In this document: piece by piece, positions 25,122 to 50,619 of the stretch
How the letters are laid out: each line of letters begins with the position of its first letter
How positions within the stretch are numbered: the stretch's first letter is position 1
Notes under the pieces: model-generated
What the model was told of the DNA's origin: nothing
Database searches by the model: none
The model's input: the letters and a program-made list of their open reading frames with translations, nothing else
Assembly (NCBI GenBank): GCA_027450145.1
Contig: DAIDKH010000003.1
Coordinates: 1-64,000, forward strand
Length of the DNA stretch: 64,000 nucleotides
Direction of reading: 5' to 3'
DNA from: Chthonomonadaceae bacterium
GTDB taxonomy: Bacteria > Armatimonadota > Chthonomonadetes > Chthonomonadales > Chthonomonadaceae
Position numbers and translations under genes: made by a program

Positions 25122-26342
25122 ATGCCTGTTTTTCAATATACCGTGAGCGATACGACAGGAAATATGCGCACCGGAACCTCAGAGGCGGAGAGTGAGGAGA
25201 TCTTAACTCGCCGCCTGCAAGAACAGGGGTTTAGGGTTACCGGCGTCAAAAAGACTGCAAAATCCAAGGGGAGTGCGTCCAACGTCTATTTCGGCAAAGT
25301 CAAGTTAAAAGATATTTCGATCTTTTGTCGTCAGTTCTCAACGATGATCGATGCCGGTGTGTCGCTGGTGCGGTCCCTGGATGTTTTGGGAGAACAGACA
25401 CAAAATCCCAAGCTCAAGCAGATCATACACGAAGTTCAGATTGAGGTGGAGGGTGGATCGAACCTTTCAAAGGCTCTGTCAAAATACCCCAAGACATTCA
25501 ACAACCTGTTTATTGGTTTGATCAAAGCTGGTGAAGTCGGTGGTGTAATTGAAGAAGCACTCCAGCGATTGTCTACCTTCCTTGAAAAGGATATGGAGCT
25601 TAAGCGGAAAATAAAATCCGCCATGACATATCCTGTCATCGTCGTTATCGTGGCCATTGTTATAGTTTTGGGTCTGTGCACCTTCATCGTTCCTAAGTTT
25701 ATCTCACTGTTTAAGGATCTGGGAGTTAAGCAGTTACCCGCGCCAACACAGATGTTGATGGACTTCAGCGACTTCCTGAAAAATGAGTGGTACGTAGGAA
25801 TTGGAATTATCGTTTTCGTTTGGTTTGCCATCAAGATGATTGGGCGAACCAGGATTGGCCGACGCGTAATCGATCGAATGAAGCTCTCGGTCCCCGTTTT
25901 TGGTCCGTTAGGCCATAAGGTCATGCTTGCGCGGTTTTCCCGAACGCTGGGAACCCTGCTGGTTTCGGGTGTTCCCATTCTGCAGGCGTTGGAAACGGTT
26001 GGCGACGCAATAGGTAACGTTATTCTTAGTGAAGCTATTATGAATGCGCATGCGCGAATTCGTGAAGGCGATCGTATCAACGTTCCGCTTCAAAAGAGTG
26101 GCCGCTTTCCACCAATGGTTGTCCATATGATCTCGATTGGTGAGGAATCTGGTTCTCTTGACCACATGTTATCCAAGATCGCGGAGTTCTACGAAGGTGA
26201 AGTGGATGCGCAGCTTGCATCACTTACGGCTTCCATCGAACCTATCATGATCGTCTTTCTGGGTCTGTGCGTTGGGTTCATCGTCATATCGCTGTTCCTG
26301 CCGCTCATTGCCGTTATCGCTAACCTTAGTGGTGGTGGCTAG
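25122..26342 (+). CDS. pilC: type IV pilus inner-membrane platform protein PilC (GspF family)
   Basis: 406 residues. It begins MPVFQYTVSDTTGNMRTGT, typical of the family, with two related GspF halves (KLKDISIFCRQFSTMIDAGVSLVRSLDVL and VMLARFSRTLGTLLVSGVPILQALETV) and three membrane helices. The C-terminus EPIMIVFLGLCVGFIVISLFLPL is conserved. It couples PilB and PilT to pilin insertion and removal. Confidence 0.96.
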   Translation: MPVFQYTVSDTTGNMRTGTSEAESEEILTRRLQEQGFRVTGVKKTAKSKGSASNVYFGKVKLKDISIFCRQFSTMIDAGVSLVRSLDVLGEQTQNPKLKQIIHEVQIEVEGGSNLSKALSKYPKTFNNLFIGLIKAGEVGGVIEEALQRLSTFLEKDMELKRKIKSAMTYPVIVVIVAIVIVLGLCTFIVPKFISLFKDLGVKQLPAPTQMLMDFSDFLKNEWYVGIGIIVFVWFAIKMIGRTRIGRRVIDRMKLSVPVFGPLGHKVMLARFSRTLGTLLVSGVPILQALETVGDAIGNVILSEAIMNAHARIREGDRINVPLQKSGRFPPMVVHMISIGEESGSLDHMLSKIAEFYEGEVDAQLASLTASIEPIMIVFLGLCVGFIVISLFLPLIAVIANLSGGG

Positions 26343-26353
26343 CTAAGGAATAT

Positions 26354-27415
26354 ATGCCTGCATCCAACGGGTACTGGCTTGCAGTTAGTGTTATCTTTGG
26401 CCTGACAGTGGGCAGTTTTCTGAACGCGGTGATATACCGATTAGGTCAGGAACCGCCCCTGTCGTTGCTAGAGCCTAAAACATCGATATGTCCGTCCTGC
26501 AGGCACCCATTGGGCGCCATGGACCTGGTGCCTGTACTCAGTTTCCTTTGGCTGAAAGGCCGATGCCGATATTGTAAGTGCTCAATTTCGTGGCGCTACT
26601 GCGGCGTGGAGCTGCTTACTGCTGCACTTTTTGGTGTGATGTATTTGGCTGGACCAGGAATGGCCCAGCCATTTACAACGATCTCGTTGCAATTGTACGC
26701 TGCAACTCTGGTTCCTGTGTTCTTCATTGACCTGGCAACATTTACAATTCCAGACTCGTTGAACATTTTGCTGCTGGTCATTCCTGTAGCACTCGATGTC
26801 TATGGAATCCTGAATCACCTTCCGGGCCATGCACTCGCAGATGGTTGGTTGCCGTTGTCAGTAATGGGTGCCCTGGTTGGTGCGCTCATCTTTGGGGCCG
26901 TACGGGTGGCCGGGTGGCTTTGGAAGCGTGTTGAGGCGATGGGCCTGGGTGACGTGTTGCTTGCTCGGGGTATGGGCGCAATGTTAGTCTGCATGGCTGG
27001 TGTGGGGCACAATCCGTTGTGGTTGTTCCCATCCTGGGTGCTGTTGTCATGTTTGAGCGGCATTGTGGTTGGCCCTCTGTTGATTTGGCAGCGCCAAAGG
27101 ACGGCTTTAAAGCATCCTCCAGTGACGTCTCCGCCACCTGCTCAGGAAGAGACTGTGGCGGACGAAGAGACGGGTGGCTTGACGAGGGAGCTTACTGATA
27201 TTGCGTGGTGCCTTGTGTTAGGGGACTTGTGGCACTATGTGGTCAGCCGAGTTCGGAAACAGCCTCTATCGATAGTCGAATTGCCAGTTGAACCGTGGAC
27301 TCCGCTTCCGTCTGCGATTCCATTTGGCCCGTTTCTAGTGATCGGCTTTTTCGCCGCCCTCCTGTGGGGCGGTCCGTTGACGACAGCCTATTTGCACTAT
27401 GCGCTGCACCGGTGA
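26354..27415 (+). CDS. pilD: prepilin peptidase / N-methyltransferase PilD
   Basis: 353 residues. The N-terminal methylation half has VGSFLNAVIYRLG and the zinc cysteines CPSC and CRYCKC. The aspartyl protease half has the catalytic Asp in FFIDLATFTIPDSLN and GLGDVLLARGMGAML (GxGD; the usual Lys two residues on is Leu). The extra C-terminal part, about 240-353, includes a hydrophilic stretch and a final helix and exceeds the standard family length of about 250-290. It processes the prepilins encoded just downstream. Confidence 0.94.
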   Translation: MPASNGYWLAVSVIFGLTVGSFLNAVIYRLGQEPPLSLLEPKTSICPSCRHPLGAMDLVPVLSFLWLKGRCRYCKCSISWRYCGVELLTAALFGVMYLAGPGMAQPFTTISLQLYAATLVPVFFIDLATFTIPDSLNILLLVIPVALDVYGILNHLPGHALADGWLPLSVMGALVGALIFGAVRVAGWLWKRVEAMGLGDVLLARGMGAMLVCMAGVGHNPLWLFPSWVLLSCLSGIVVGPLLIWQRQRTALKHPPVTSPPPAQEETVADEETGGLTRELTDIAWCLVLGDLWHYVVSRVRKQPLSIVELPVEPWTPLPSAIPFGPFLVIGFFAALLWGGPLTTAYLHYALHR

Positions 27416-27502
27416 TATGGAACAGCGTTAAGTCTTTTGTCGTCCTACATTACGATGCTTCTGCTATGAATTGAAGCCGGATAGCGGATGGAGATCTTTG
27501 AG

Positions 27503-28333
27503 ATGGATCGAAAATTCAACGGGAATTGGTCTGGTCGTTCCGACAGTGGATTTACGCTTATCGAGCTGCTCGTTGTTATAGCCATTATAGCGATACTGGC
27601 CGCAATCCTTTTTCCCGCGTTCGCTGCTGCCCGTGAGAAAGCACGACAGTCAACTTGCCTCTCCAACCTGCATGATATCTATCAGGCTACCGCATTGTAC
27701 TACCTGGATAACCGCAAGTATCCGGGCGTCCTGTGGCAATGGGCCGGCGTCAACTACACCAATCTTGACACCAACTGCGGCGGTACGGCAGCTGTGCATC
27801 CATATAAACCCCTGTACACGACTAAAAAGCTCTCAGGGGATGCAGAATTCAGTTGCCCGGATAATCCCACCAATAACAAGACGAACACGGTGCAAGTCGT
27901 CTATCCGCCCAGCGTACCACTGGCGCAGTCGTTCAGTGTTGTGGGCTACAAGGACACTCCTGCCCTTTCTCAGGCAGTGGGAACCAACGTTTCGTTTCCC
28001 ACCGCGACCGAGCAGTTTTATCCGTTTGATTCGTATGACATCGGCCCGTCTCTCGATACGAATGGCAATCCCGTGAAACAGGGAGGCTCCTTTGTGTACG
28101 AGTTGCATTACAGCCTCGACTGGACTGGGGCGACCGGGCCCAACGACTTTCCTAATCAGTTGAAGTATGGATCACTGGCACCGCCTGCAGAAACAGTTCT
28201 AACCTGGTGCACCTATCATCAGGCAGTGAATAGTGCGGGAGTGGTGACACTCATTTTGAACGATGGAACCGCGCGTACCATGGATGCCAGAACATTTGCG
28301 CAGAAGGGTCCGCTGCATGCATTCGCACCCTAA
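27503..28333 (+). CDS. type IV prepilin-like protein, first of a tandem pair
   Basis: 276 residues from ATG at 27503, preferred over 27488 because GGAG lies about nine bases before it. The class III leader is short; cleavage is predicted between Gly16 and Phe17 of SGFTLIELL, with Glu21 as conserved Glu5. The helix continues [33 protein letters not shown], a form common in Armatimonadota and Planctomycetota. The C-terminal region has [11 protein letters not shown] and TWCTYHQ...LNDGTAR. It is similar along its length to the next gene. Major or minor pilin status cannot be told. Confidence 0.88.
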
Positions 28334-28367
28334 TTTCGTAGACAGGTTTTTGACGATGGAGACGACC

Positions 28368-29363
28368 ATGATCCGGACGAGGCCAACCAGACCAACGAAC
28401 CACCGCGCATTCACGCTTATCGAGCTTCTCGTGGTGATCGCCATTATAGCGATCCTTGCTGCTATCCTTTTCCCGGCTTTTGCGGCAGTAAAGGAACAGG
28501 CACGGCAATCCGATACGATGTCGAACATGCATGAGATCTACGAGGGTGCGCGCATGTTCTACGAGGATGAGGGGCACTATCCTTCGTCATTATTCGGTTA
28601 TGCCGAGACGGTATCCCCCAACATTGGTGTGCCAGGTTCGCCGCCGGCGATGCCAGCAATTGCAGGGGATCCGATTACTCCGATGGAGAAGGCAACCGAG
28701 GATTTCACTACAGCAACTTCTGGCAGCACTTTTGGGTACTTGTATGGACATCAGGTCAAGGATTACAATGCGTTTTTGTGTCCCGACAATACGGTTACCA
28801 ATCAGAGTGCGGTTACAGAAGTGTACTATCCTTTGTCACTTACCAATAACCAGCCCACATTAGTAACCTGGCAGCAGGATTCTCCGACAACCCCGTGCCC
28901 GTTCTACGGCGATCCCGACTTACCCGCCCGACAACTAGGCGGAGGTGCTACCAACCCTACGTTCTATGTCGGTCAGCCGAAGCTCTACTATGTCATGGAC
29001 ACGATGGACATCGGGCCAATGATCGACAGCACAGGTAAGCAGATGGTGGATTCCAACGGTGCCAAAATGTACGAGCTGCACTATTCTACCGACTGGACGC
29101 ATATGCGCTACGATGCGCAAAATGCTTGTGATCTTTACGGCGACAACGGCGCGCCTGCTGGTACATCGGCAACCAATGGCTCGCCAATCACCGCCCAATT
29201 AAAATATCAGAACCCACCGTCAGAGAATACGATACTCACCTGGAATACTCAGCACGTTGCGACTGCAGGCTCCAGTAGCGTTATCATTCTTCTTCTCTCG
29301 GGTACTGCACGCAAGATTAGCATATCACAGGCGTTACAGCAGCTTCCGCTTAATTACCGCTAA
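28368..29363 (+). CDS. type IV prepilin-like protein, second of a tandem pair
   Basis: 331 residues from ATG at 28368, six bases after GGAG; an in-frame ATG at 28356 is the alternative. Leader cleavage is predicted at Ala14-Phe15 (RAFTLIELL), with Ala replacing Gly at -1. It matches the previous pilin in the N-terminal helix, FLCPDN, MDIGPMID, YELHYSTDWT and TILTWNTQH, but has longer middle loops. A tandem duplication followed by divergence is the simplest reading. Confidence 0.88.
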   Translation: MIRTRPTRPTNHRAFTLIELLVVIAIIAILAAILFPAFAAVKEQARQSDTMSNMHEIYEGARMFYEDEGHYPSSLFGYAETVSPNIGVPGSPPAMPAIAGDPITPMEKATEDFTTATSGSTFGYLYGHQVKDYNAFLCPDNTVTNQSAVTEVYYPLSLTNNQPTLVTWQQDSPTTPCPFYGDPDLPARQLGGGATNPTFYVGQPKLYYVMDTMDIGPMIDSTGKQMVDSNGAKMYELHYSTDWTHMRYDAQNACDLYGDNGAPAGTSATNGSPITAQLKYQNPPSENTILTWNTQHVATAGSSSVIILLLSGTARKISISQALQQLPLNYR

Positions 29364-33633: not shown

Positions 33634-33701
33634 TAGTGTCGTCTAACAGCGGTAACCTCCGCGTTGGACATTTAAGAGAATTCACGAAGAGAAGAGCTGA
33701 G

Positions 33702-36700: not shown

Positions 36701-36803
36701 ACTCCCGGCCATTCCAGATCTGCCAGTTTGCCCAAACACGCTCTACTCTGGCCAGGGTACCGTTCCGGTTGGCAGTCTGCCAGATGACAGTGACCAGCTA
36801 TGA
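33702..36803 (+). CDS. giant PilX-like minor pilin component
   Basis: 1033 residues from ATG at 33702; GTG at 33636, three bases after the previous stop, is an alternative that adds 22 residues. The N-terminus SQRGQTLIIALIVLFALLFLGGVFVTRIARNLQQS is PilX-like: a hydrophobic helix with no Glu5 and a poor peptidase site. Then GEAATLAQAGLDYCNRNL, and about 950 residues of beta-rich, Asn/Gly/Thr-rich sequence with a stretch resembling autotransporter passenger repeats (VNLVLFAEGNVKVHGVYGAI). Its stop overlaps the next start by ATGA. It holds the PilX position in the minor-pilin order. Confidence 0.75.
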   Translation: MVQSNRHHNSRYSRSQRGQTLIIALIVLFALLFLGGVFVTRIARNLQQSGRTRQSGEAATLAQAGLDYCNRNLNSSPQGADWRPTPSTPINNQDPDIYWLVRGFSRISVPGGRALVRVAYDPCPDNPSGSNLVIESIGRPGALPNPPGSDPTVFVPTGNSPRLRQELVAYKQIGLTDYGLYVTGATMRTVPNYIGTPAIGHNVATVLGNPMLGFSTYSNGVSNFGPNGAQALYGFPIYVNGNLKFGSDTYLYEGHRGGSTALTQESVLVNGTISLDPSRTTNLYNTINDSQLPAYLNEEIDQSPVPQVSNVAGAILPSNGQFNSYDGLIRDSNGGPDVNGIERAVPRLTPPSLDTLDGSGVLRYRALTRDSGSWYTNSAGALLNTGADGYGTGIYVNNFADQQRETSVAGLNGAYSLRSDWLNPQAHLATTINGVNYGWDGPYYRAPGVDILLLGNTIQLTRDDGVPFTLPDGTQSETITLPLWDYARDNTVLPNGIHLMPLHHDGDNGGANSPFGDKNSYGVNLVLFAEGNVKVHGVYGAITNTADTSESATVSKLGRVHLTIVSGGTAYIDGNLVSGDGYVNGGVVTMEHASTLAILAKDYVTVNTTMFMRPQTPNTWSSENEDSNPPFYTELGQGGASAMDMAFSWGVDPSQNYSVQGSRSPLFLMVRQGAVGNGVAPYNLLLNPGVAAPYSNAYYQFPFNTVPSTAPAAGTYGVVGTEMLGLPLYPGNAQLPGLVTPGYDNVFRFQFDRSAALAGQQLTDMKLGGAAVVPLDIRIEATLYAQNRSFFVIPGYSFNPNKADSRAEYQLRGDIRISYNGADVRDVSNPQPSPDREAKDVFPFYGEPTDIRITMFGSIAENYTASAGDQAAWLARWGYIPAYYGSTEYYTNTAARVQVPDMHLMNQDPTSLVAGEDTTLNYRTPLETQAAGTPAIDQDIPITNGLRYEYNPILAMPYYDPTDVTLIPLANHLTRQQRAIRSRSYQITVPGGGAYTIEQVLPAIPDLPVCPNTLYSGQGTVPVGSLPDDSDQL

Positions 36804-39800
36804 TAAGAGAATCAGCGGGAATGAAACCTATGAAACGCAGCTTAAATCTGTTAGCAGTAATGGCGGCGGCCACTGCCCTATCGTCTAGTGCAGCACTGGC
36901 AAGCAACATTAGCTTTAACAGCAGTACCCGCACGATCAATGCGTGCGTGCTTGTCAGCAGTGCCTCTGAGGCGAACAACAACGGTGTCGTATACCCCGTA
37001 GATCCGGCCCCCTACCTGTTCTATGCAGTGAGTAATTTTAAAAACTACACGCCCGCTGGCTGGAATATCCAGAATCCTCTGGCGCCTCCGGTTATAAATG
37101 CAGCAATTTACCAATCGTGGAAGGAGCGTACAAACGGAACAAACGATCCTGCGTTTAATGTGGGTACACCCCAGTATGCACAGTTTCAGATTGGCCAGCC
37201 TGTAGACAAGTCGATGGGGGCGTACTGGGAAGAGAACCTAGACACGATGACCCAGGCGGATCTGGATCGGTATAACATTGTCTACATGCCGCTCTCGGGC
37301 CAGCGCTACGTGGGAACAACTCCAGTGGGTCTGATATTCACGGAGGCAGAAAAGGAAAAACTGCGGGAATATGTGGATCAGGGCGGAACTCTCATTCTCG
37401 AGAGTGTCTATGGCTACAATCCAAAAAACTACGGGTCAGACATCAACTTTTTCATTCCGCTGGTCAACCAGGATTTAACCGCTTATGGTCCAAATTATTC
37501 TGACCCCAATCCGAATGCCAATCTGCTAAACTGGCCGCTCAAAATTTCCTACCAGGATATACTGGGCATATTTGCATTTTACTTTGTACCAACAAGTTCG
37601 GTCTTCTCATCCCCCGGAATGACGGGCCTGACTCCAGCCTTTTTCAAGCCTATTGTTACGGCACCGCCAGAGGTGGTTCTTGCCCAAGGCAATTATGGTG
37701 CCGGCCAGATCATCTACTCGTTTGCTCTGCTGCAGTATGTATCTGGCCAACTAGCGCCATCCAGCAACTACATGGGTGTGCAGGGGTTCCGGAATACTGG
37801 AGCAGTTAGTGGATCAGAGTTTAATTCCCAGCAGAGTGGAAATTTGAAGATCGCTGTCAATGTTGTAGGCGCTGCAGGCGGTGTTGCCCATGAAAGCGAT
37901 GCTACACCCCAGCGGATGCCCTCTGCTATTGCGAGCAGCTGGAGTGCAGTGCCATCCAACGCAAATAATATAGGCGGTGGTTCATCGATTATAGACGGGT
38001 TGGGTTTTACCGTTGACGGTAACAATCTCCTTCACTGCTACGATCTAACACCAGGCACTAGCCTGGGAGGGTTTGGCAGCGTTAACGGAGTGGACAACGG
38101 CCTGCAGGACTATAGTGTAGGAACTCCATACGACGAGATCTGGAACCTTACACTGCCAGGCTCCGGCAGGTATGGTGCGCCGCGAACGATTTCGAATGGC
38201 CAGGGGATATACTGCGCGGTCACTTCGTCCACCGGGAACACCGTAGTGACGAAGGGCGTTACTTATGCCGCCAATGGCGCCGCAAACGCCTCTTCATCTG
38301 TGGTATTTTCGGTGGCTGGTTCAGCCGGGCCTGATAGCGCGATTGATCCCACCACCGGTGGCCCGCTGCCAACGCTCGGAACGGGGTACGCAGGCGGATT
38401 TCTGTTCGCGCCGGTCTATACCGGTAATGGTTGGCAGATTGAAGCCGTCGATTTCGCCAATAGTGTGGCAAACGGGGCGGTGGTGCCGGCTTTCGGCACC
38501 GGCGAGTCGTCCGTTGTGCCGCCTACCAGTGTTTCGTCTACCGGGCTTGGCCCGCTATGCGGACCCGTGACGGCAGGCTTTGTAACAGACTCCGCAACCG
38601 GTGCGCAAGATCTGGTGGCATATGCGCCGCTTCAGGGTGTGAGTGCAGGTGCGCCGGGTGGTTTTGCAGGTGCCTGGTTTGAGACGCGGGGGGAACCGCT
38701 TGAGGCAAACGGTACAGATCCAAACAACAACTACCTCATATATCAGCCCAAAGGCGATCGCGCACTTATACCGTGGTTCGATACAGCCAACGGAAATGCA
38801 TCGCTATTGCCTGTTATCTATGTCTCTGTTGTGGACGCTGCCGGTAACCTTGTAAGTATGAACGTTTACCAGGCGAATAATGCGAATGTCAACCTGCTTT
38901 GGGGACAACATAAGCCGATCGACTTTCCATCCAACGAGCCCATTACGCCTGGCCAGAACTTCATGGAAATCGAAATTAATCCGGCTGCGATGCCAGCCTT
39001 GCCTACTGGCGAGAGTTACGTGGTGTCCGCTGATTATGCTCTTGACTGGCCGGGTGATCCTATCAACGGCACGAGTCTAGTGCCGTCGGATTTAGCAAGA
39101 ATTACCAGCCGCGGGTTTAGCCTCTATAATCCATCTGCGTCACCGGGAGCAAATTACCTCGCGGGCGGTCTCGCTATGGACCCAACCGGATCGCTGTTGT
39201 TCACCGTTCATCCCACTGGTGTCCTCGATAATTCTGGAGGAAATGCATCCCGACTTCCCGATCGTGTGTACAGCGTCACTGATCAGTTCTCCGGGACTAC
39301 TCAGGGCGGGATTACTGCCGCTGGCACGACAGTGAACTGGATGTGGAGTCCTACCACCGCAGAAGTGTTTGATGGAAATCAGATTAAGTCACGGCTGACC
39401 TACACTGCGAGCAACGGGACCGTCTATCCTATTTCAGGGTTCCAGGTAATAGGCAAACCTGCGGTCTTTAATGGTACGGTTTATGTCGTCGGTACTGGCT
39501 ATATTGAAGGCGCGGGGCAGAGCAATTCCACAGTTCCTGCGACAATGGTGCTGGCGCTTTCAAGCACAATCAATCCTGTGGTTACGCTCAACCCTGCTAT
39601 TGAACTGTCGACCGCTGCTGGTGCGGCCCAGGCGCCAATATCAGTTCAACAACCTGACTTGGAGCGTTCATCTCAGGGCAGCCCTGCCTATAACACGCTC
39701 ACTCCTAATCGTGACTACGTGCTTAATAAGCAGGTGGATAATACCGGCGCAACCTATGCCACTGCGATTGTTTTCAGGTCATTGCAGCCTGTAGGCAACC

Positions 39801-41728
39801 GAGATACGTTCAATGCCGCTATGCCACTTTTTATTTCGAACGGAACCACCGGTCAGCGTACAGAGATCACTGGCACTTCTGGTTACGGTCCGCTTGATAA
39901 CCTTCAGTGGGCGGTTGCTTATCCTGAGGCACCGGTAGTGGGGGACATTGCCTCGATCCAGGGTGAGGAGAACATCGCTCATTTCGCCCCGCCGAGTTCT
40001 GGTATTACCGCATCGACCTCGGGTCTGTTCTACGGCACACAAGCGGGTACCATTGTTCAGGTCAATCTTACCAGTGCATCAGGGATTAAAGCTCCAGGTG
40101 CTGCGGATGTTGCCACAGCGCAGGTGAGTGGAACACTAACCAATGCAGCAGGCACCCCAGTGTCCCAATCAATTATCTATGCGCCGGCCGCAGCCCAAGG
40201 CAATCTGCTGGTTTCGACACCTGAAGGAGCAGCCGACCTAAATAGCCGGTCGACCGTAATAATGGACAATGACCGCCTCCTTTCGGTGGATGCCGGTGGT
40301 AATGTGGAGTGGATGATAGACAGTTCTTCGCTGAACGTACAGGTGAGGAATCCGTTCGACTCAACGCCATCTGCACAGACCAACGTACCGTTTTCCGGGG
40401 CGTCTGCAGTACATCTTATTAGTGCCGGGCAGTATATTGCTGCCGATACGAACAATAATAGAATTGTCTGGTTTGACTCGGCGGGTAATGTATTACAGAA
40501 CATAAGTGAAGTCCGTAATGACCTCATGGTTCTGCCTCAGGGACAGTCGTTAGCACTCAGTGGACCCACTGATGTACAGTTCTACTCGGAAACGTCCAGC
40601 AACACGACCGTCAGCTACACCAACCCCGTTACTGGTGTGACCTATTCCTATACTGGGCCTCTAACGCTCTACCACTACGTCATTGCCGACAGTGGAAATT
40701 ATCGCGCAATGGAGGTAGTCGATGGGTTGAATCCGATCAGCGGGGCGTTCGTCCAGTTGAAGCCTACAAGTGGCAGCTACACGCCGATTGTACTCTACCA
40801 CCAGGTCGTATTCTCGACTGCGTCGCTAGCCACACAGGGCCAACACTGGCGCTACCGGACCATTCAACAGTTTTTTGACCCGTTGAGCGGTGTTGAGTCC
40901 CTGGTGGCAGCGATCAGCAACGTTACCCCGGCCTCATACCAGGGGCTCGCCGGGTTGGGTACGACAGGCGCGGATGTACAGGGCTCTGATGGTGGGGCAG
41001 TACTATTCCTGGCTCGAACGGGTGCGCAGCAGGCTAAGATCATTCAAATTGCAACGAGCATCAACGTGCCCAATGGCGCAGGTGGATTTATTCAACAGCC
41101 CATTCAGAAGCCGACCTTCTTTAAGCAGTTCTTCCTGCAGGTGAATGGGGCGCCGCAGATCCGTTATTTGCTATGCGACGCGAATGGTTGTTATGAACTG
41201 CAGGCAGATCCTAGCGGAAAGGCCCTTGATGTTGACTGGATGCTTTCTTCCAGCAACTACCAGTATCTCACCGGACGACCGCTAGATGCACTTTCCATTC
41301 AGCGCATTCCGTCTACCGACATATATACGGATGCATCCGGTACGCACCTTGCGCCGCACTATTTAATCACGAACGGCTACCACGGGAATGATGGCGCAGT
41401 GGAGTGGTTCAACACGATGTTCGGAGCGGCTCCGCCTAATGTTGCGGACGGTTACATTCACGGTGAAGTTTTTGAGATCAAATCGACGCCCTACTATACT
41501 GGCGGATACCAGCAAGCTGTAAACGTCCTTTACACTCAGAATGGTCTGGGAGAGATGGTTCAAAACCCGAACGGAGCGATTGTTCAACTTATTCCGAATG
41601 AGCAGCTGCTTCAGACGGATACCGCAGGGAATGTGATAAAGGCGCCGATTCGCAGGGCGTTGGGCACTGCCGGAAGCGGGGTAGACACTACAACATTGTC
41701 CGGGCCTACTTTTAGTTTGCGTCCATAA
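36800..41728 (+). CDS. giant exported protein 1 at the PilY1 position
   Basis: 1642 residues with a Sec signal peptide (LNLLAVMAAATALSSSAALA, cleavage near residue 34). The ATG at 36800 overlaps the PilX-like stop; ATGs at 36821 or 36830 are alternatives. Residues about 135-215 (DRYNIVYMPLSG... EAEKEKLREYVDQGGTLILES) look like the alpha/beta unit of DUF4159/GATase-like domains. Later parts have beta-propeller or NHL-like strands (FYGTQAGTIVQVNL; YIAADTNNNRIVWFDSAGNVLQ; YVIADSGNYRAMEVVDG). No known full-length family is recognised. Position suggests a pilus-tip or priming protein like PilY1. Confidence 0.7.
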   Translation: MIRESAGMKPMKRSLNLLAVMAAATALSSSAALASNISFNSSTRTINACVLVSSASEANNNGVVYPVDPAPYLFYAVSNFKNYTPAGWNIQNPLAPPVINAAIYQSWKERTNGTNDPAFNVGTPQYAQFQIGQPVDKSMGAYWEENLDTMTQADLDRYNIVYMPLSGQRYVGTTPVGLIFTEAEKEKLREYVDQGGTLILESVYGYNPKNYGSDINFFIPLVNQDLTAYGPNYSDPNPNANLLNWPLKISYQDILGIFAFYFVPTSSVFSSPGMTGLTPAFFKPIVTAPPEVVLAQGNYGAGQIIYSFALLQYVSGQLAPSSNYMGVQGFRNTGAVSGSEFNSQQSGNLKIAVNVVGAAGGVAHESDATPQRMPSAIASSWSAVPSNANNIGGGSSIIDGLGFTVDGNNLLHCYDLTPGTSLGGFGSVNGVDNGLQDYSVGTPYDEIWNLTLPGSGRYGAPRTISNGQGIYCAVTSSTGNTVVTKGVTYAANGAANASSSVVFSVAGSAGPDSAIDPTTGGPLPTLGTGYAGGFLFAPVYTGNGWQIEAVDFANSVANGAVVPAFGTGESSVVPPTSVSSTGLGPLCGPVTAGFVTDSATGAQDLVAYAPLQGVSAGAPGGFAGAWFETRGEPLEANGTDPNNNYLIYQPKGDRALIPWFDTANGNASLLPVIYVSVVDAAGNLVSMNVYQANNANVNLLWGQHKPIDFPSNEPITPGQNFMEIEINPAAMPALPTGESYVVSADYALDWPGDPINGTSLVPSDLARITSRGFSLYNPSASPGANYLAGGLAMDPTGSLLFTVHPTGVLDNSGGNASRLPDRVYSVTDQFSGTTQGGITAAGTTVNWMWSPTTAEVFDGNQIKSRLTYTASNGTVYPISGFQVIGKPAVFNGTVYVVGTGYIEGAGQSNSTVPATMVLALSSTINPVVTLNPAIELSTAAGAAQAPISVQQPDLERSSQGSPAYNTLTPNRDYVLNKQVDNTGATYATAIVFRSLQPVGNRDTFNAAMPLFISNGTTGQRTEITGTSGYGPLDNLQWAVAYPEAPVVGDIASIQGEENIAHFAPPSSGITASTSGLFYGTQAGTIVQVNLTSASGIKAPGAADVATAQVSGTLTNAAGTPVSQSIIYAPAAAQGNLLVSTPEGAADLNSRSTVIMDNDRLLSVDAGGNVEWMIDSSSLNVQVRNPFDSTPSAQTNVPFSGASAVHLISAGQYIAADTNNNRIVWFDSAGNVLQNISEVRNDLMVLPQGQSLALSGPTDVQFYSETSSNTTVSYTNPVTGVTYSYTGPLTLYHYVIADSGNYRAMEVVDGLNPISGAFVQLKPTSGSYTPIVLYHQVVFSTASLATQGQHWRYRTIQQFFDPLSGVESLVAAISNVTPASYQGLAGLGTTGADVQGSDGGAVLFLARTGAQQAKIIQIATSINVPNGAGGFIQQPIQKPTFFKQFFLQVNGAPQIRYLLCDANGCYELQADPSGKALDVDWMLSSSNYQYLTGRPLDALSIQRIPSTDIYTDASGTHLAPHYLITNGYHGNDGAVEWFNTMFGAAPPNVADGYIHGEVFEIKSTPYYTGGYQQAVNVLYTQNGLGEMVQNPNGAIVQLIPNEQLLQTDTAGNVIKAPIRRALGTAGSGVDTTTLSGPTFSLRP

Positions 41729-41806
41729 GCTGCGGAGGCAAGGTCCGTCATAGAAACAGGACTAACCCAGGTGGGTACGTCCACGTGAGATAGAGGAAGA
41801 GACTCC

Positions 41807-44800
41807 ATGAGGCAATCGGCATTGTTTGCCATAAAAAATGCGGCCATCTGTGTGTTGTTGCTCGTCATTGCCGGCGCAGGTGCCCGCGCACAGTACGCCT
41901 ACACTGGTGACGACTGGACACTGGATCGCGGCTCAGCGACAGTGGATACGCTAAATAATGGTCTCGCTCTGCGCCAAGGCTATAACGCCTTTACAGATAG
42001 CGCTAATAATCCGCTTCACGCGGTGCGGCGCTGGGTATGGCCTGCTACTGCAGATATCGCGGCACAGACCGGTAGTGTTGGCGGTAACTATTCACTCACA
42101 ACCGACAACTACAATCCGAATGACTTGCCGGCTAACAAGGTTGTGGAGAGCAACGGTCAGCAAGCAACAGATGCCATCGCAGTTTGGAATGGCAATATCT
42201 TTGGTATACCAGTTCCTGCCAATCGTGTGCCATATGGCGGCTTTAGCTACATTACTGATCCTACCAACGCAAACTCCTTTGACTACGGCGTAGCAGTACC
42301 AGTACTTCAGAATATTGAAGACGGAAATGGCAACGCGGTAAGTTCTACCACTCTAGAGGCTCTGCCTTATGTGTCGTCCGACATCTATTCCAATGTGCAA
42401 AAGGCGCTCATTGCAGATGACAATAACACGGCAGAGTGGTCGATGGGTACTCCCACGCTCCCGACACTTGCAGCCAACCAGTATGTGAAGGTTCAGTACG
42501 AGGTACAGGTGTGGTCACCGGGGGATGGTACTGTCACGCAGGTGAATGGCGCCAACGTGGTTCATCCCAATATTCAGCATGCTTTTGTGCGGGTGAGTTG
42601 GAACAACACTGTCGCAGGTGGGACGCTTAACTACGGCACGGGTGTTGCTGGTACGGGCGGCATTAACGATCCAGAGTACAGCCGCATATTCATGTTGAAT
42701 CTTAGCGGTGGGCCTGGATGGAGAACTGTGGGCGCTTATGCCAGTGGTAACCAGACGGCCGCAGTGCAGCCCGCACTTTTCCCGTATCTAAGCAGTGCGC
42801 CGGCCAGTCAAGTCGTTGTCTCGCTCTACCGCCTGACGCCGGATAACCCGAACGATACGACAATCTACACCAATCCACCGCTGGTAACCGCGGATGCGGT
42901 GCGGTTTGTACCCGTGAGCGTTCAGCTTTACACTAACGGTGTTACGCCAGTACCGGATACGACGAATATGGGGCCAATCTCGGCGATTGGCCGCATTCTT
43001 GCCCCGGTTGTCTCCAGCAAGAATATCGCGACGGGCAACGGTGTGGACGCGGGCGATCCGATGGCCGGTCAGGATCTCTGGTATGCAGCGCGCGAGGAGA
43101 CAATTCCCACCACCACGACGACGATCGTGGACCCCACGCAAACCAATCTCACGGCCAACAATGATCCATTTGCCTCGCAAACAGCCCCGGTCTTCTACTG
43201 CCTCACGAACGTAGATGAAGCAGTAACCGCGGGTACAACGATCACCAATGTTCCATCAATCGACCGCGTGCGGTGGAGATACGTCGCTACGCCCGATGAG
43301 GGTACTGGCACCTGCATCGCATCGCCTCTGCTCGCGAACGTCAGATGCCGCGACGGTGTAGTTCGCCCCATGGTCTATTTCGTTACGACAAACGCAAGTG
43401 GGTCGCTAGGCCACATCTATGCCCTTGACCCGCTGGGCAACAATCCGTTTGATAATTTTAACGGCAACGGAGTAGTAGATCCAGGTGATCTTTCTACTCG
43501 GACGACTAATGCCTATTGGGTCTACCCTTCGGTGCGCTGGATTACAAACTCGTCGGGTGGAATTACGACAACCGTCAATGGAACTAACGCTCCACCAAAC
43601 GCCCCCGCTGGTTGGGATGATCCAAACTATACGGTACCACTCAACCTGGGAGGTTACTCGCGCACCGGATATCCCGCTGCAGCCTACGGTGCAGACCAGG
43701 CAATTCCGTACTACGACGGCGACATTGTCACAAACACGGCAGCCAATGCGGCTACCACGCCGTTTGTAACGCGGACCGACACGCAGATAACACTGGGCGG
43801 TATGGCATGGGCGCCATTGATTGTGAACGATCCCAGTAATCCTACAGGCGCACAGGAACTGATCGTCGGTTCGCAAGCGGTTACCAGCTCTAACACTCTT
43901 CAGGGCCGCCTCTGGGCATTTGATGCCGGTGGCCGCGGAGATTTCGGTACAATCAGTGTAACGGAAGTTGACAATAACGTTACGCCTATCACCACGACCA
44001 CTGCGACAGTACCAACACCAGGAACTACGCAGAGGCTGTGGACTTGGCCGCATTTTGGAGCTGACGCATTTCATCGTGTAAATGCTGATACCGCGGGTGG
44101 CTACACTCAAACGTTCAACATACTGGACGAGACACCATTAGGGCTTATATCAGGTTCGCCGACGTTCGATCCCAATTATCCTGGTACAGAACAACCGGTG
44201 ATGTTTGGCACCTCGGACGGTCGAGTCTACGCTGTGCTGCCCTATCACGACTCCTTCCAGAGTATCAATGCGAACAATCAGGCAGTCTACGACAATAGCA
44301 TTCGTGAGTATTGGACATATCCTAACATCTCAGTCGCGGGGCTGGGTGCGGGTATATCGTCGCTGGCGACTTTCGTAAGCAGTAAAACATCCGCGCGCTA
44401 CCTGGTCTTTACCAGTGATCTGCCGGACGGCAGCGGTGGCCGTGTTTACGAGATTCCTGAGGCAACTGTTACTGGCGCGCTAGGCAGCCAGACCCCCGCA
44501 GGTGCTACGTTGACATGGGTTTATCCGCCCGCCACCAATCCACCTGCCGCCGATCCAAATAATCCGAACGCAACCGCGCCCTTGGCGCCAGGTTTCGGTC
44601 CCTCAGCTCCTGTCGTTGTCAATTCTGGAACTGTCAATCTACTGTCGGCAAACCTGATTCCGTACGACATGGTCTATGCGGTGCAAAATGATGGTACCGT
44701 GGATGCGATTGAAGCGGATCCTAACGGGGACGGTAACGGCACAACGCCGCTTCTCTACTCCACTAGTCCTGCTTTCACGAACACGACCACCTGCACGCCA

Positions 44801-47800
44801 ACGGCTACACAGATCATAGCCCAACAGGGCATGCTCAATAACACACCGCTATCAACGGTCGCCAACAACTCCTTCCCTGCGGTAGTATTTGCAGATGACG
44901 GAGGCGCCATTTCTGCTATTGGTATGAATGCGATCGACGATGGAACTGGCACAGGCACTACGCTTCTACCGGCACTGTGGCAGTACAGTGACAGCGGAAC
45001 GACAAGGATAGCGACTGCTTCCCTATCGAATGGCTACATAGTGGAAGGGGACGAAGGGGGTCAGCTTCGCGCCTACAGTAATGGCTTGGGCAACGGGACT
45101 CAGGAGACAGTGCCTCCATCCGAGGCATTGGGCAACTCCACCGATGCAACAATTGATCTACGGTTACTTGATTATTATGCCCAGCCCGACTGGAAGAACT
45201 TCATGCAGCCGCTAGGAACTGCCGGCGCTGAGACACCTGCTGTTAGTACGACGGGAGCCTATTTAGGCGCCAAACCCATCGGTTCAACGCAGCTGCCACG
45301 AAATGGTGTTCCAGCCGACTGGGGCGATACTCTCTACCTGGCTGCGTGGGGTGTCTACCACGCACAGCCGGAGGGGACCCAAGCCGGCACGGGTAAGATT
45401 GAGCAGGGCCTTACTGCGCCAAGGATCACTGTAACTTTCAGGGTCCTTCAACCTGGTTCGGCGCGCAGTGTGCTGATCACGGTGCCCGCGGAGCTTACAT
45501 CCACGGCTAATAATGGCTGGCCGGCGGATACCGCAGCTCTTGGCACCAACTTCTCGATAGCGGGCTGGGATAACACTCTTCAGGCAGTGCAGCTTCTCAC
45601 TGGACCCACTCAGAATGTATTTCCTTGGGTGGCTACCTACTCGTTAGTGATCAAACCTGACGCTCAAAACCCATTCACGCCAGGACTTGCTGGAGTGCGC
45701 GTAGCAGCTCAGGCGCATATTCAACAGACAATCCTTATACAGCAACAGGGATCACCAAACGTTACTGAGGACGCTCGCAGGGACTCAGTTATCCTACGTG
45801 CTGGACAGCATGACTATGTAGGCTTCGCCAACACGGATGGAAACGGAAACTGGTTTGCAGGTACGCCCAATAATCGTGCGCTCCGTGGTCGCGCCCGCCC
45901 GGTGTTCATTACAAACCCGCTCGCTCTCACTACGGCTGGCCCCAACCCGGCGAACACCGCGGTTGGTATCAACAACATAGCCGATAACACTGGCACCCCA
46001 GAAACGATGGGGTGGGCTGGTTCTGTGCAGACTGCGGTCACCTCGCTGCCGGATCTTTTTGGAAATGGCGCCTCCATTGGCTTCCCAGGCAGTATCGCCT
46101 ACAAAGCGCTTCTTGCTCCATTAGATTTGGTACCGGATGGTCAAAGCGTCACCTATCAGGGTCTGAACAACGCTGGCGCCCGTGTGCCTGCGCTATATGC
46201 CATGGATCGAAGCGCCTACTACGAGGTTACTGGCAACGCACTTCACTACCAGGTGAATGTGCCACAGTTTAACTGGTATGGCGGGGCCAACGCAGTAATG
46301 AACCCATTGCCGTGGGAAGCGATGCCTGGTGATGGCGTAGATTCCGCGGACTATCCCGCTATTCCATCTACGGCGGTTAAGGTAACTGATCCGACGGGCA
46401 CTAATGTGGTCGCTTCCAACGGCGTGTTAACTCCACCGACACAGCCAGCAGGGGATTCCAACGTCGCTGACCGCATACTGTCTCCTGTACCGCTAACGCT
46501 CCAGCTGAACGTGCCAAAGTATCAACCCGCTAACGTGAATGCCGGAATAGCCACCTTCAATGGCGTATCCATCGGCGGAAGCTACACGGACATTGCCGGC
46601 CAGGTACTTGGAAGCGCTGGAAGTCCGGTCTATGGCCCGATGCTCACATACGGTAACGGAGGATTGAGTCCTAACATCAATGCTGCCTCCTTCCCTGCCC
46701 TGGGTTACGTAGGTCAGAACTTCCAGGTCAATGTGGTACTTCCCGGACAGATCTCCAATCTACCACCCAACGGGTTTAGGCGTGCTGCTCCTTCGCGAGA
46801 CTTCACATCTACCGTATGCGTGGCGCCGGACTTCAAGATGAAGATTGGGCAAAGCGCCATCGATCTAGGCAGCGAGCCGGCGGGAGCTGGATACAGCTCG
46901 GCTAATGGAGCCGCTTACAGCCTTCCATTCGAACCTACCGGTGTTGGCGCCTACACAAATTCCATCAGCCCATGGGATGGCACTGCGACGAATCAAATTG
47001 GTAAGTTCTTCCAGCCATTTACCTTGCAGAGTGACAGCAACGTCAATCTAGTGGACCTACGTATTGCGAAGCTGTTCGGCTTACCCGGTGCAGCAATCAA
47101 TGGAGACTCTCTTGCGACGTCTCCTTATCAGACAGGCGCAAATGGGGTCGCTGTCAGCGCACGGATGCAGAGTGACACCGTAGATCAAACGCTGAGCCCG
47201 TGGTTGCTCGCCACTCCATTCGGGCTCTCCGGCAGCAATGCAAGCGGACCAGGTCTTGGAAACATCGGCGTCGTTTCGTCGTTCGATCATGCCTCTCTAA
47301 GTGATAGCCAAACGAGCGCTGTTTCGCTCTATCCAATACCAGGAGCCGCATGGCCAGGTGGACAAGAACCGTACCCAACGCTGCACAAACCCCTTCCAGG
47401 TGATCCATCTGGCACGATAGCCACTGTTCCTGACGTGCCCCACAATTACAGTGGTGTGCAGCTGCCGTCTCCGGAAGTAGGTATTGCAATACCTTACGGA
47501 ACCCCTGTAGGTACCTACACAGGGCGGCTAATTGCTTATGAGGATGAACTACCGGTTCAGTGGCAGGCATGGCTCTCTACGCTGCGTGGTTCAACTAACG
47601 GTTTGCCGGTAAACAATGACGGCATTCTTAACACCAGTTCGATTTCCGCAGTACAGGGCTTGACCGATCCTACAGGGACCGTTGCCGCTGGTATTCTGGA
47701 GCCAATTTCCAATGCTGTACCAATCCAGATAAAGGTCATCGAAAATCGACTGACTAATGGAGTTACGCCCGGTAGCCTTAGTCAAATGGATCTCGTTAAC

Positions 47801-50176
47801 CCATTGTTGGCCTTTACGTCATCAGCAGGCGGTCAACCCGGGCCTTATAATACATCGCCGGCACTGGCATATGTACCGGGTGCTGCGAACCAGTCTGCAA
47901 ACCCAAGTCGAATTGTCTGCTTCTGGTCCTCCAGCAGAAACACTGCCGGTGGTGGCCAGGAAAATCTCAACGCTAGCCAGATCGCACTACCTTACGCGGT
48001 GTTCAGTTACACCGGCGCAAACGGGAATACCCAGTTTGTCCGGGGGGATGCTGTAACGGCTGGCGGCACTGCTGAAAACACACTCTGGTGGTCGACGCCA
48101 CAGCAGCTGCTCACTCTTAATAGTGGACTAGCGAATACTTACTTCCCATCCACCGGGGATGCCGCGATAGCGGGTACTCCGTCGATCGATACGTTGCGAT
48201 TTGCCGACCCTGCAATCGCACAGACGGTAGATGTGAACGCAGCAGGTGCAGTTGCTACGCCCGGAAGTGATCCACTTGGCTACATTTTCTACCGGGGCCA
48301 GGTTGACAAGTCCATTGGCGGGCAGCAATCGATTGATCACCGGCTGCTTTATCAGAGCCTGAATGGTGCAGTTCCACAGGGAACGCCTATTGCCTATCCG
48401 AATGATCCATCGCTCCCTGCGGCAACTCCGGAGCCTATTGCGATCAACTTTACTCAGGCTGACGGCGCACGTGGCACTTCAGCTCAACAGATGGTCTATG
48501 TGTTCTACGGTACCGGTACCGCTGGCGCGGCTCACCTGTACTACAATGTGAACGCGTATACAAACAACGGAGCGACGTTGAACTCGGGTGGCACTGCAAT
48601 CACCGCGGATGGGTGGATAAGCAGTGGTGCAGCCGCTGATCCGCGTCTTGGCGCCCAGGTATTGCCCCTTCCCGCAGCGGTCACCGCGGCGACGCACCCA
48701 ACTGTCATCTACAGGCAGGTGGTAACGCACAATCCGTTTGACCCTGCCAATCCGCAGGATCTGCGCAGAATAGATTGCCTGGATGTCTACTTTAGCGGCA
48801 AGGTGCGAGGTAGAAGTGGCGTTCGGTTACTCATGGTGCGCTTTGGTATCTACCGTGGAGAGAACTACGGTGCGGGAATGCCGGCCATGAAGATGGGGCA
48901 GCTGTTCGTAGTGCCTTTACCACCGGTGGTTTCCGAGCTCGCTGAACAACATGGGGATGCAAACACCTGGGCAGGGCGTGATAGCGGCTGGTATACCGGC
49001 GTTCCATCACCGATTGTTGTTCAACTCGAGCATTTCGATAACACTACAGGAAATTACTCTGGGCTCATAAACCTTAATGCACCTGCAGGTTCCACAGTTG
49101 CAGCGCAGGGCCAATTTGATCCTGCGAGTGGCGATCTGTTCTACCAGGTACTTTCTACCAACGCGGCCACAGGCGCCACCGTGAACAACGCCAGCGGTCA
49201 ACCCCTGCTGCAGGGTGGGGCCATGGTGGTAAATCCGGGTGCTGGAACGGTTTCGTTCCCCAATATTGCACCGTCGCCAAATGACAGGTTGATGGTTTCG
49301 TACATCCCGGAAATCCGAGACCTTTCCGTGGCGCGTAACGATAGCAATATCATTCCCGGTGGTGGCTATGGTGCGTACGGCGCAAATATCCCAGCCACAC
49401 TACTTCCGCAGGTATGGAACAAAGTGGCGGGTGATGCCTTTGGCCCCGTGGCAACTCTGGATACAAGTGCCAATCCGCGCCAGCAATACACTGCTCCTGC
49501 AGTTGTGTTTAGCGCGAATGGCCAGTACCTGCCACCGTCTAACGGCATAATGCCGGTTGATCGACTGTGGGTGGTCTACCGTAAAACCGATCTTGGAGGA
49601 GCGCAGGCCCAAGGTCTGTTTGTCAAATCCATGCGCCTTATGGTTCGCTTGCCGTATCCGGTGTGGTTGACCGCACCTGATGCCAATGGTAATCAGCAAA
49701 TTCAGGCACTCACCGTTGCGGTAGACCCGTCGGATCCTAACCAGGCACCGCTCAATGGGCCATATGAAGTAGACTGGGCACGAGGAAGGATCTACTTCAC
49801 CACTGCAGATGCTGGCCGGATCATTGACGTAAGCTACACCGGTGCAGTTGGAGGGGGTCCGGGCAATTCTGGAAAGCTTGTCTATCGAATTGCCTGGGGA
49901 GATGAGGTTAGCACCAATCCTGACTATGAGTATGCGTTAGTGAACGGCGAGCCTGTGATTCAGGATGGGACCGGAAACACGGTACGTGACCTAACCACCC
50001 CCGAAACAGCCGTACCGATGGCGTACAGGGTCAACGTTGGTCAGGTGGCTGCAATGGCGGATCCAATCGTCAACCGACTGTGGCTATTCTGGTCAGGAAC
50101 AGCGTTCGGTTCTACGGACCTCTACCAGGAGGCCTATGCGCCCAACCTGTATCCCATAACTCCAAGTCAACACTAG
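41807..50176 (+). CDS. giant exported protein 2 (2789 residues) with PQQ-propeller-like blades and EF-hand-like loops
   Basis: It has a signal peptide (AAICVLLLVIAGAGARA, cleavage near residue 28) and a clear start with AGAGGAAGAG upstream. The N-terminal half has blade-like repeats ending in strands such as GHIYALDPLG, GRLWAFDAGG, GTSDGRVYAVLPYH, GTVDAIEADPNG and GGQLRAYSNG. EF-hand-like loops are at 550-561 (NFNGNGVVDPGD) and 971-978 (DPNGDGNG). The C-terminal region has the VD-x-x-x-G-x-I-x-F motif at about 2475 (VNPGAGTVSF) and 2655 (VDWARGRIYF). It ends the operon at a strong terminator. The PilY1-like role is inferred from order and fold, not from full alignment. Confidence 0.72.
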   Translation: MRQSALFAIKNAAICVLLLVIAGAGARAQYAYTGDDWTLDRGSATVDTLNNGLALRQGYNAFTDSANNPLHAVRRWVWPATADIAAQTGSVGGNYSLTTDNYNPNDLPANKVVESNGQQATDAIAVWNGNIFGIPVPANRVPYGGFSYITDPTNANSFDYGVAVPVLQNIEDGNGNAVSSTTLEALPYVSSDIYSNVQKALIADDNNTAEWSMGTPTLPTLAANQYVKVQYEVQVWSPGDGTVTQVNGANVVHPNIQHAFVRVSWNNTVAGGTLNYGTGVAGTGGINDPEYSRIFMLNLSGGPGWRTVGAYASGNQTAAVQPALFPYLSSAPASQVVVSLYRLTPDNPNDTTIYTNPPLVTADAVRFVPVSVQLYTNGVTPVPDTTNMGPISAIGRILAPVVSSKNIATGNGVDAGDPMAGQDLWYAAREETIPTTTTTIVDPTQTNLTANNDPFASQTAPVFYCLTNVDEAVTAGTTITNVPSIDRVRWRYVATPDEGTGTCIASPLLANVRCRDGVVRPMVYFVTTNASGSLGHIYALDPLGNNPFDNFNGNGVVDPGDLSTRTTNAYWVYPSVRWITNSSGGITTTVNGTNAPPNAPAGWDDPNYTVPLNLGGYSRTGYPAAAYGADQAIPYYDGDIVTNTAANAATTPFVTRTDTQITLGGMAWAPLIVNDPSNPTGAQELIVGSQAVTSSNTLQGRLWAFDAGGRGDFGTISVTEVDNNVTPITTTTATVPTPGTTQRLWTWPHFGADAFHRVNADTAGGYTQTFNILDETPLGLISGSPTFDPNYPGTEQPVMFGTSDGRVYAVLPYHDSFQSINANNQAVYDNSIREYWTYPNISVAGLGAGISSLATFVSSKTSARYLVFTSDLPDGSGGRVYEIPEATVTGALGSQTPAGATLTWVYPPATNPPAADPNNPNATAPLAPGFGPSAPVVVNSGTVNLLSANLIPYDMVYAVQNDGTVDAIEADPNGDGNGTTPLLYSTSPAFTNTTTCTPTATQIIAQQGMLNNTPLSTVANNSFPAVVFADDGGAISAIGMNAIDDGTGTGTTLLPALWQYSDSGTTRIATASLSNGYIVEGDEGGQLRAYSNGLGNGTQETVPPSEALGNSTDATIDLRLLDYYAQPDWKNFMQPLGTAGAETPAVSTTGAYLGAKPIGSTQLPRNGVPADWGDTLYLAAWGVYHAQPEGTQAGTGKIEQGLTAPRITVTFRVLQPGSARSVLITVPAELTSTANNGWPADTAALGTNFSIAGWDNTLQAVQLLTGPTQNVFPWVATYSLVIKPDAQNPFTPGLAGVRVAAQAHIQQTILIQQQGSPNVTEDARRDSVILRAGQHDYVGFANTDGNGNWFAGTPNNRALRGRARPVFITNPLALTTAGPNPANTAVGINNIADNTGTPETMGWAGSVQTAVTSLPDLFGNGASIGFPGSIAYKALLAPLDLVPDGQSVTYQGLNNAGARVPALYAMDRSAYYEVTGNALHYQVNVPQFNWYGGANAVMNPLPWEAMPGDGVDSADYPAIPSTAVKVTDPTGTNVVASNGVLTPPTQPAGDSNVADRILSPVPLTLQLNVPKYQPANVNAGIATFNGVSIGGSYTDIAGQVLGSAGSPVYGPMLTYGNGGLSPNINAASFPALGYVGQNFQVNVVLPGQISNLPPNGFRRAAPSRDFTSTVCVAPDFKMKIGQSAIDLGSEPAGAGYSSANGAAYSLPFEPTGVGAYTNSISPWDGTATNQIGKFFQPFTLQSDSNVNLVDLRIAKLFGLPGAAINGDSLATSPYQTGANGVAVSARMQSDTVDQTLSPWLLATPFGLSGSNASGPGLGNIGVVSSFDHASLSDSQTSAVSLYPIPGAAWPGGQEPYPTLHKPLPGDPSGTIATVPDVPHNYSGVQLPSPEVGIAIPYGTPVGTYTGRLIAYEDELPVQWQAWLSTLRGSTNGLPVNNDGILNTSSISAVQGLTDPTGTVAAGILEPISNAVPIQIKVIENRLTNGVTPGSLSQMDLVNPLLAFTSSAGGQPGPYNTSPALAYVPGAANQSANPSRIVCFWSSSRNTAGGGQENLNASQIALPYAVFSYTGANGNTQFVRGDAVTAGGTAENTLWWSTPQQLLTLNSGLANTYFPSTGDAAIAGTPSIDTLRFADPAIAQTVDVNAAGAVATPGSDPLGYIFYRGQVDKSIGGQQSIDHRLLYQSLNGAVPQGTPIAYPNDPSLPAATPEPIAINFTQADGARGTSAQQMVYVFYGTGTAGAAHLYYNVNAYTNNGATLNSGGTAITADGWISSGAAADPRLGAQVLPLPAAVTAATHPTVIYRQVVTHNPFDPANPQDLRRIDCLDVYFSGKVRGRSGVRLLMVRFGIYRGENYGAGMPAMKMGQLFVVPLPPVVSELAEQHGDANTWAGRDSGWYTGVPSPIVVQLEHFDNTTGNYSGLINLNAPAGSTVAAQGQFDPASGDLFYQVLSTNAATGATVNNASGQPLLQGGAMVVNPGAGTVSFPNIAPSPNDRLMVSYIPEIRDLSVARNDSNIIPGGGYGAYGANIPATLLPQVWNKVAGDAFGPVATLDTSANPRQQYTAPAVVFSANGQYLPPSNGIMPVDRLWVVYRKTDLGGAQAQGLFVKSMRLMVRLPYPVWLTAPDANGNQQIQALTVAVDPSDPNQAPLNGPYEVDWARGRIYFTTADAGRIIDVSYTGAVGGGPGNSGKLVYRIAWGDEVSTNPDYEYALVNGEPVIQDGTGNTVRDLTTPETAVPMAYRVNVGQVAAMADPIVNRLWLFWSGTAFGSTDLYQEAYAPNLYPITPSQH

Positions 50177-50239: not shown

Positions 50240-50619
50240 TATTTTCAAGGGGTCATTTTTAGATCGATTGGTATTTCCGCGGCGGTGTTAGCCGAAGGTC
50301 ACCACGTCGTAGCTTTTGGTGCGCGGCACGCGAATCTGCAACCGATAAACCGGCCCCACAACGTTCAAATTCAAGCATCGTGCGCCAGGATCCCAGCGTG
50401 TTTACGCGTCCAGCCCCATTGATCGAATTAATTCCCTTATACGGTAACAAAGCCCTTGCAGAATTACTATGTAGTCGCTATAATTCCACTATAGTTATTT
50501 ATATTTTCGGGGTTGTGATTTCGCGAGTGCAAATACGGTAGATCCCCGCGGCTCGTGTGTGTGATGTGCCTGCAATGTGCTTGGATAATTCGGTAATCTC
50601 CTGGAGGAGGTGCCTGGGC
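50240..50619. other. 380-bp intergenic region between pilus terminator and the A2M operon
   Basis: Contains the promoter at 50456-50484. A 63-codon minus-strand reading (50450-50259) starting with TTG is open, but it has no Shine-Dalgarno and no recognisable motif. Nothing else is seen. Confidence 0.5.
50456..50484 (+). promoter_or_regulatory. promoter of the membrane protein-A2M-VanW operon
   Basis: TTGCAG (50456-50461), a 17-base spacer and TATAAT (50479-50484). The expected transcript starts near 50491, leaving about 130 bases of leader before the ATG at 50620. No opposing structure was found in the leader. Confidence 0.7.

Follow-up and report, generated by a model that had tools for sequence, protein, structure and literature searches.

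In Armatimonadota, a phylum of which few members are in culture, the place of PilY1 in the minor-pilin operon is held in almost all genomes by one or two giant exported proteins of predicted beta-propeller type. PilY1 was not found in the genomes searched, which suggests that the pilus tip evolved separately here. Where they have been studied, proteins of the PilY1 type act in the priming of type IVa pili, in adhesion and in surface sensing. On balance, the first of two consecutive proteins (giant 1), together with the second (giant 2), is probably the Armatimonadota functional counterpart of PilY1, a tip and priming module made from different proteins. The fuller picture is offered more tentatively: throughout the phylum, two conserved giant propeller proteins, unrelated to PilY1, would take its place at the type IV pilus tip, having gained a PilY1-type calcium loop by convergence and sitting on oversized minor pilins. 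If true, the capping and priming role of PilY1 can be filled by another protein family, and a conserved giant in its slot would separate the features that a tip requires (position after PilX, propeller, calcium loop) from accidents of the PilY1 family.

Gene order in the window and across the phylum

The window, a stretch of 64,000 nucleotides from a Chthonomonadaceae bacterium, carries on one strand, from 21913 to 50176, genes in the order pilB-pilT-pilC-pilD-prepilin-prepilin-PilV-like-PilW-like-PilX-like-giant 1-giant 2 (Table 1). PilB, PilT, PilC, PilD and N_methyl prepilins, as expected of a type IVa minor-pilin operon, are all present, with four N_methyl prepilins upstream of the giants (ORFs at 27488, 28263, 29450 and 31471). 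The second of these probably starts downstream of 28263, since its ORF overlaps prepilin 1. Matches to PilM_2 (1.1e-56) and Secretin (1.9e-30), representing PilM and the PilQ secretin, lie elsewhere in the genome on contig C8, where gene order also suggests PilN- and PilO-like genes. A complete-looking type II secretion system (T2SS), with GspE-, GspF-, GspG- and GspD-like proteins and further prepilins, is encoded separately on contig C79. With PilM and the secretin on another contig and the T2SS separate, the cluster in the window represents the ATPase and minor-pilin portion of a type IVa-like pilus. The three minor pilins at 29450-36803 are oversized too (674, 720 and 1055 aa).

Table 1. 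Features of the pilus operon and of the two giant proteins in the window
Feature	Position	Strand	Basis
PilB-like extension ATPase (T2SSE + MshEN)	21913..23688	+	Pfam 2e-131, 4.5e-19
PilT-like retraction ATPase	23748..25028	+	T2SSE 8.6e-50
PilC-like platform protein	25122..26342	+	T2SSF 3.6e-68
PilD-like prepilin peptidase	26354..27415	+	A24_N_bact 1.5e-28, Peptidase_A24 5.2e-07
Prepilin 1	27488..28333	+	N_methyl 2.8e-09
Prepilin 2	28263..29363	+	N_methyl 3.4e-09
PilV-like large minor prepilin, 674 aa	29450..31474	+	N_methyl 2.3e-07; TIGR02523 PilV 4.2e-06, below cut-off
PilW-like large minor prepilin, 720 aa	31471..33633	+	N_methyl 2.6e-05; TIGR02599 7.8e-08, below cut-off
PilX/GspK-like giant minor prepilin, 1055 aa	33636..36803	+	N-terminus conserved in homologues; GspK model 6/25 members; PilX_N only below cut-off
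Giant 1, 1642 aa, secreted (predicted)	36800..41728	+	intact ORF; family in 248/291 phylum genomes
Giant 1 Sec signal peptide, ...SSSAALA/SN	36800..36901	+	sequence; heuristic
Giant 1 DUF4159-like (amidotransferase-like alpha/beta) core	37235..37414	+	PF13709 0.0027 here, below cut-off
Giant 1 PQQ/BamB-like propeller region (approximate limits)	37982..40099	+	PQQ_2; PDB 3hxj by profile
Site of the family's PilY1-type calcium loop, giant 1, degenerate here (SLGGFGSVNGVDNG)	38060..38101	+	alignment
Giant 1 C-terminal region with NHL-like propeller repeats	40127..41725	+	NHL; PDB NHL propellers; internal repeat
Giant 2, 2789 aa, secreted (predicted)	41807..50176	+	intact ORF; family in 187/291 phylum genomes
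Giant 2 Sec signal peptide, ...AGARA/Q	41807..41890	+	sequence; heuristic
Giant 2 PQQ-like propeller region (approximate limits)	43244..45376	+	internal repeats E 1e-22; PQQ_2; designed PQQ propellers
EF-hand-like loop DNFNGNGVVD, giant 2, genus-private	43451..43480	+	sequence comparison
Giant 2 conserved central region, no assigned fold	45869..48136	+	family alignment
Giant 2 C-terminal region, no assigned fold	48137..50173	+	conserved in family alignment; weak internal repeat E 2e-4

A sequence-only reading of this DNA had placed the two giants in the PilY1 position behind the minor pilins, with the first coupled to the PilX-like gene by ATGA. The giant 1 ORF does lie directly 3′ of the 1055-aa PilX-like ORF, and its stop codon shares the sequence ATGA with the first in-frame ATG of giant 1; initiation at this ATG is uncertain, as the ATGs at 36821 and 36830 suit the signal peptide equally well.

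The position itself was confirmed by the survey of Armatimonadota that the reading had proposed. The giant-1 family is present in 248 of 291 genomes and in 176 of the 194 near-complete ones, mostly as a single copy, which makes it a near-universal marker gene for pili in the phylum. The PilX-like family was found in 275 of the 291, and the giant-2 family, searched with its conserved central region, in 187, fewer than giant 1. Among the 119 genomes listed in both the giant-1 and the PilX-like searches, 114 carry giant 1 immediately 3′ of the PilX-like gene in the same orientation, and in the remaining five the two are on different contigs. Giant 2 follows giant 1 at a distance of no more than 12 kb in 94 of 108 genomes, the other 14 again having them on different contigs, so that no exception places the homologues away from pilin genes within a contig. 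Inspection of about 38 neighbourhoods across the phylum found a giant-1 homologue after the PilX-like gene every time, and a further long ORF after giant 1 wherever the contig extends far enough; the single complete genome examined has its next gene beyond giant 2 on the opposite strand. Because the order recurs across the phylum, it is not a product of chance. Two small genomes of 1.5 Mb (G152 and G153) have weak PilX-like matches only and no match to giant 1 or giant 2.

Domain content of the giants

Searches of Pfam, NCBIfam and the PDB with the window's own giants alone returned almost nothing, and domains are seen only family-wide. Profiles show giant 1 as a predicted DUF4159-like alpha/beta domain with PQQ-like and NHL-like propellers: DUF4159 (PF13709) matches 23 of 27 family members (best 2e-09), and PQQ_2 (best 2.8e-09) and NHL match eight each. 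Against the PDB, the giant-1 profile finds the PQQ-type structure 3hxj (4.2e-06) and the NHL propeller of TRIM71 (3e-05); designed Pizza propellers outscore the natural ones, their scores being inflated by identical repeats. Internal repeats are found in the NHL region at E 7e-9 and in the PQQ region at only 7e-5.

For giant 2, the profiles show a putative PQQ-like propeller and about 1600 residues without an assigned fold. Internal repeats are strong over residues ~480-1100 (E 1e-22), the family profile matches designed PQQ propellers in the PDB (4.7e-13), and PQQ_2 is found in 4 of 20 members (best 3.5e-20). Profile comparison also finds similarity between the PQQ regions of giant 1 and giant 2 (probability 67%, E 5e-5). 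No recognised domain came from Pfam or profile searches of the ~1600 residues, and Golvesin_C is present in 3 of the 20 members. AlphaFold2 models from shallow alignments were unusable, with pLDDT 35.2 for giant 1 residues 385-1584 (5 sequences) and 27.1 for giant 2 residues 1590-2789 (4 sequences); the propellers, of which PilY1 has a seven-bladed one, are predictions from sequence profiles in the giants. Both the Sec signals and the propeller-like sequence first noticed in the giants hold up, the former being evident by sequence and heuristic in most homologues as well, the latter supported by PQQ/NHL profiles and internal repeats. The propeller regions of both giants have the same type of repeat sequence as BamB/PQQ and NHL propellers (PF13360, PF01436); however, the giants are proteins of 1300-2900 aa, secreted, tied to pilin operons and without the lipoprotein context of BamB.

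Such proteins could also act away from the pilus tip, as surface or matrix adhesins or polysaccharide-binding proteins that are co-expressed with the pilus and remain on the outer membrane or are released. This would suit the presence in each giant of a Sec signal alone, with no recognised pilin-binding domain, as well as the Golvesin_C matches in a few giant-2 members and the long portion of giant 2 without an assigned fold. However, the giants are placed strictly after the PilX-like gene across the phylum, in a last operon position that otherwise belongs to PilY1/PilC, and no lipobox or cell-wall anchor was seen in them except for a possible LAGC in one giant-2 member. We regard a role off the tip as rather unlikely.

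Relation to the PilY1 family

Judged by sequence, neither giant belongs to the PilY1 family. The PilY1 beta-propeller model (PF05567) finds neither of the giants at E 1, none of 27 giant-1 and 20 giant-2 family members at E 0.1, and nothing in the 291 Armatimonadota genomes, where a PilY1 too divergent for the model could escape; as a positive control, the same search matches a Cupriavidus metallidurans megaplasmid record. Adjacent pilX and pilY1 genes were seen in a control. By hhalign, the 27-sequence giant-1 profile aligns with a single PilY1 (C. metallidurans) at E 0.2 over 32 residues, a chance match, and giant 2 with a single PilY1 sequence at E 0.37. PilY1 proteins of different genera recover one another by plain tblastn, at E 5e-47 to 1e-7. 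Many PilY1 proteins, though not all, have an N-terminal vWA or DUF4114 domain; neither was found in giant 1, where the DUF4159 match stands instead.

Homology of the giants to PilY1 is thus unsupported by either the family model or profile comparison. Nor are they a PilY1 split into two genes, since a signal peptide and a predicted propeller are present in both, and giant 1 by itself combines the alpha/beta domain with a propeller. What survives of the earlier idea of large PilY1-like adhesins is the position, conserved with the minor pilins across the phylum, the export signals, the propeller-type sequence and a calcium motif in the giant-1 family. With PilY1/PilC of Proteobacteria and Myxococcota (PF05567, PDB 3HX6) the giants share Sec export and a site directly after pilX at the end of the minor-pilin operon, and giant 1 additionally shares an N-terminal domain with a predicted propeller and, in its family, calcium motif 1. 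In contrast to PilY1/PilC, the giants lack PF05567, vWA and DUF4114 and have predicted PQQ and NHL propellers and a DUF4159-like N-terminus, and the Armatimonadota loci usually encode a second giant protein and have large minor pilins (674-1055 aa here) and a loop elsewhere in the blade.

Calcium motif 1 of PilY1 is an EF-hand-like Dx(D/N)xDGxxD (PMC13190605). Exact copies occur in 21 of 44 giant-1 homologues, against 0.14 expected from shuffling. Of the 27 aligned sequences, 16 contain an exact copy, and every one of these has a copy at the same shared column, at which 19 of the 27 carry at least a relaxed motif. The acidic residues of the loop have been lost from the window's own giant 1 and from its closest relatives. 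Since the loop here is degenerate, calcium bound through this putative site cannot be essential in the lineage. The genus and several of its relatives within the family share this relaxation, while most other lineages keep the loop. Comparison by eye of one PilY1 locus with the giant-1 alignment places the PilY1 loop before a blade strand and that of giant 1 in the hairpin after the strand; the two motifs therefore need not be homologous, and convergence would account for them as readily as descent. The EF-hand-like loop that had been noticed in giant 2 is real (residues 549-558), but is private to the genus, being retained only in a sister genome as DNFDGKGVVD, and was rejected as a family feature; the conserved calcium loop belongs to giant 1.

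It is rather unlikely that giant 1 is nonetheless a genuine PilY1, strongly diverged and extended by a second propeller, in which the PF05567 propeller has drifted past recognition. Gene position, the propeller with an N-terminal alpha/beta domain and the family's calcium motif 1 would all be as expected. However, PF05567 misses all 27 giant-1 members at E 0.1, the family profile finds PilY1 only at chance level although single PilY1 sequences still find each other across genera, and the profiles that do match giant 1 are PQQ/BamB and NHL.

The PilX-like protein and a possible tip complex

The PilX-like protein begins with G-QTLIIALIV, without Glu5, and this N-terminus is kept in its homologues; PilX of Myxococcus xanthus likewise lacks Glu5 (PMC7541494). 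PilX_N scores below cut-off against the protein here (E 0.39) and matches 2 of 25 family members, while the GspK model matches six of them. The family resembles the GspK/PilX tip (pseudo)pilins in the missing Glu5 and in the six GspK matches and differs from them in its length (~740-1160 aa), with a large conserved extension that has no assigned fold. A near-invariant GADWRP motif lies ~60 residues after the transmembrane start in the family alignment. Weak N-terminal matches link the PilV-like protein to Verru_Chthon cassette B (TIGR02598) and the PilW-like protein to cassettes C (TIGR02599) and D (TIGR02596), none of them near the cut-off or reaching beyond the N-terminal pilin segment; a literature search found no published function for Verru_Chthon cassette proteins.

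A type II secretion-like pseudopilus, with the giants as its secreted substrates or enzymes, e.g., quinoprotein-type oxidoreductases, is a very unlikely reading: although the PilX-like family scores against GspK, PQQ-type repeats occur in enzymes as well (1kv9, E 0.1 with the giant-1 profile) and Armatimonadetes have been scored as possessing a T2SS (PMC6668835), the quinoprotein matches are weak, no catalytic domain was found in the giants, and the operon was rejected as a T2SS because it contains a PilT-type retraction ATPase and the genome has its separate, complete-looking T2SS with GspD, GspF and GspG.

In M. xanthus, PilY1 and minor pilins form a priming and tip complex (PMC7541494). From this, together with the missing Glu5 and the GspK scores of the PilX-like family, we infer how the giants could serve as the counterpart of PilY1. 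Both would be exported by Sec to the periplasm, bind the outward-facing PilX-like and PilW-like pilins there, and make up or cap the complex that primes pilus extension. They would then ride on the pilus tip, giant 1 remaining as the pilin-binding cap and giant 2 forming a more distal, adhesive part. The role would fall to propellers of the PQQ and NHL types and to a DUF4159-like domain, none of which shows detectable homology to PilY1.

In the cultured Fimbriimonas ginsengisoli, pili have been proposed to serve attachment, the strain being non-motile (PMC4072686). The present genome has 68 prepilin-type N_methyl matches in total, most of them in ORFs of ~200-330 aa, and the number in F. ginsengisoli is similar (65 of 79 pseudopilin genes; PMC4072686). 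Downstream of giant 2 in the window, a 578-aa ORF (50557-52293), apparently membrane-embedded and without a match in Pfam, is followed by a gene for a bacterial alpha-2-macroglobulin-like protein (52290-57095; bMG10, MG2, A2M, TED).
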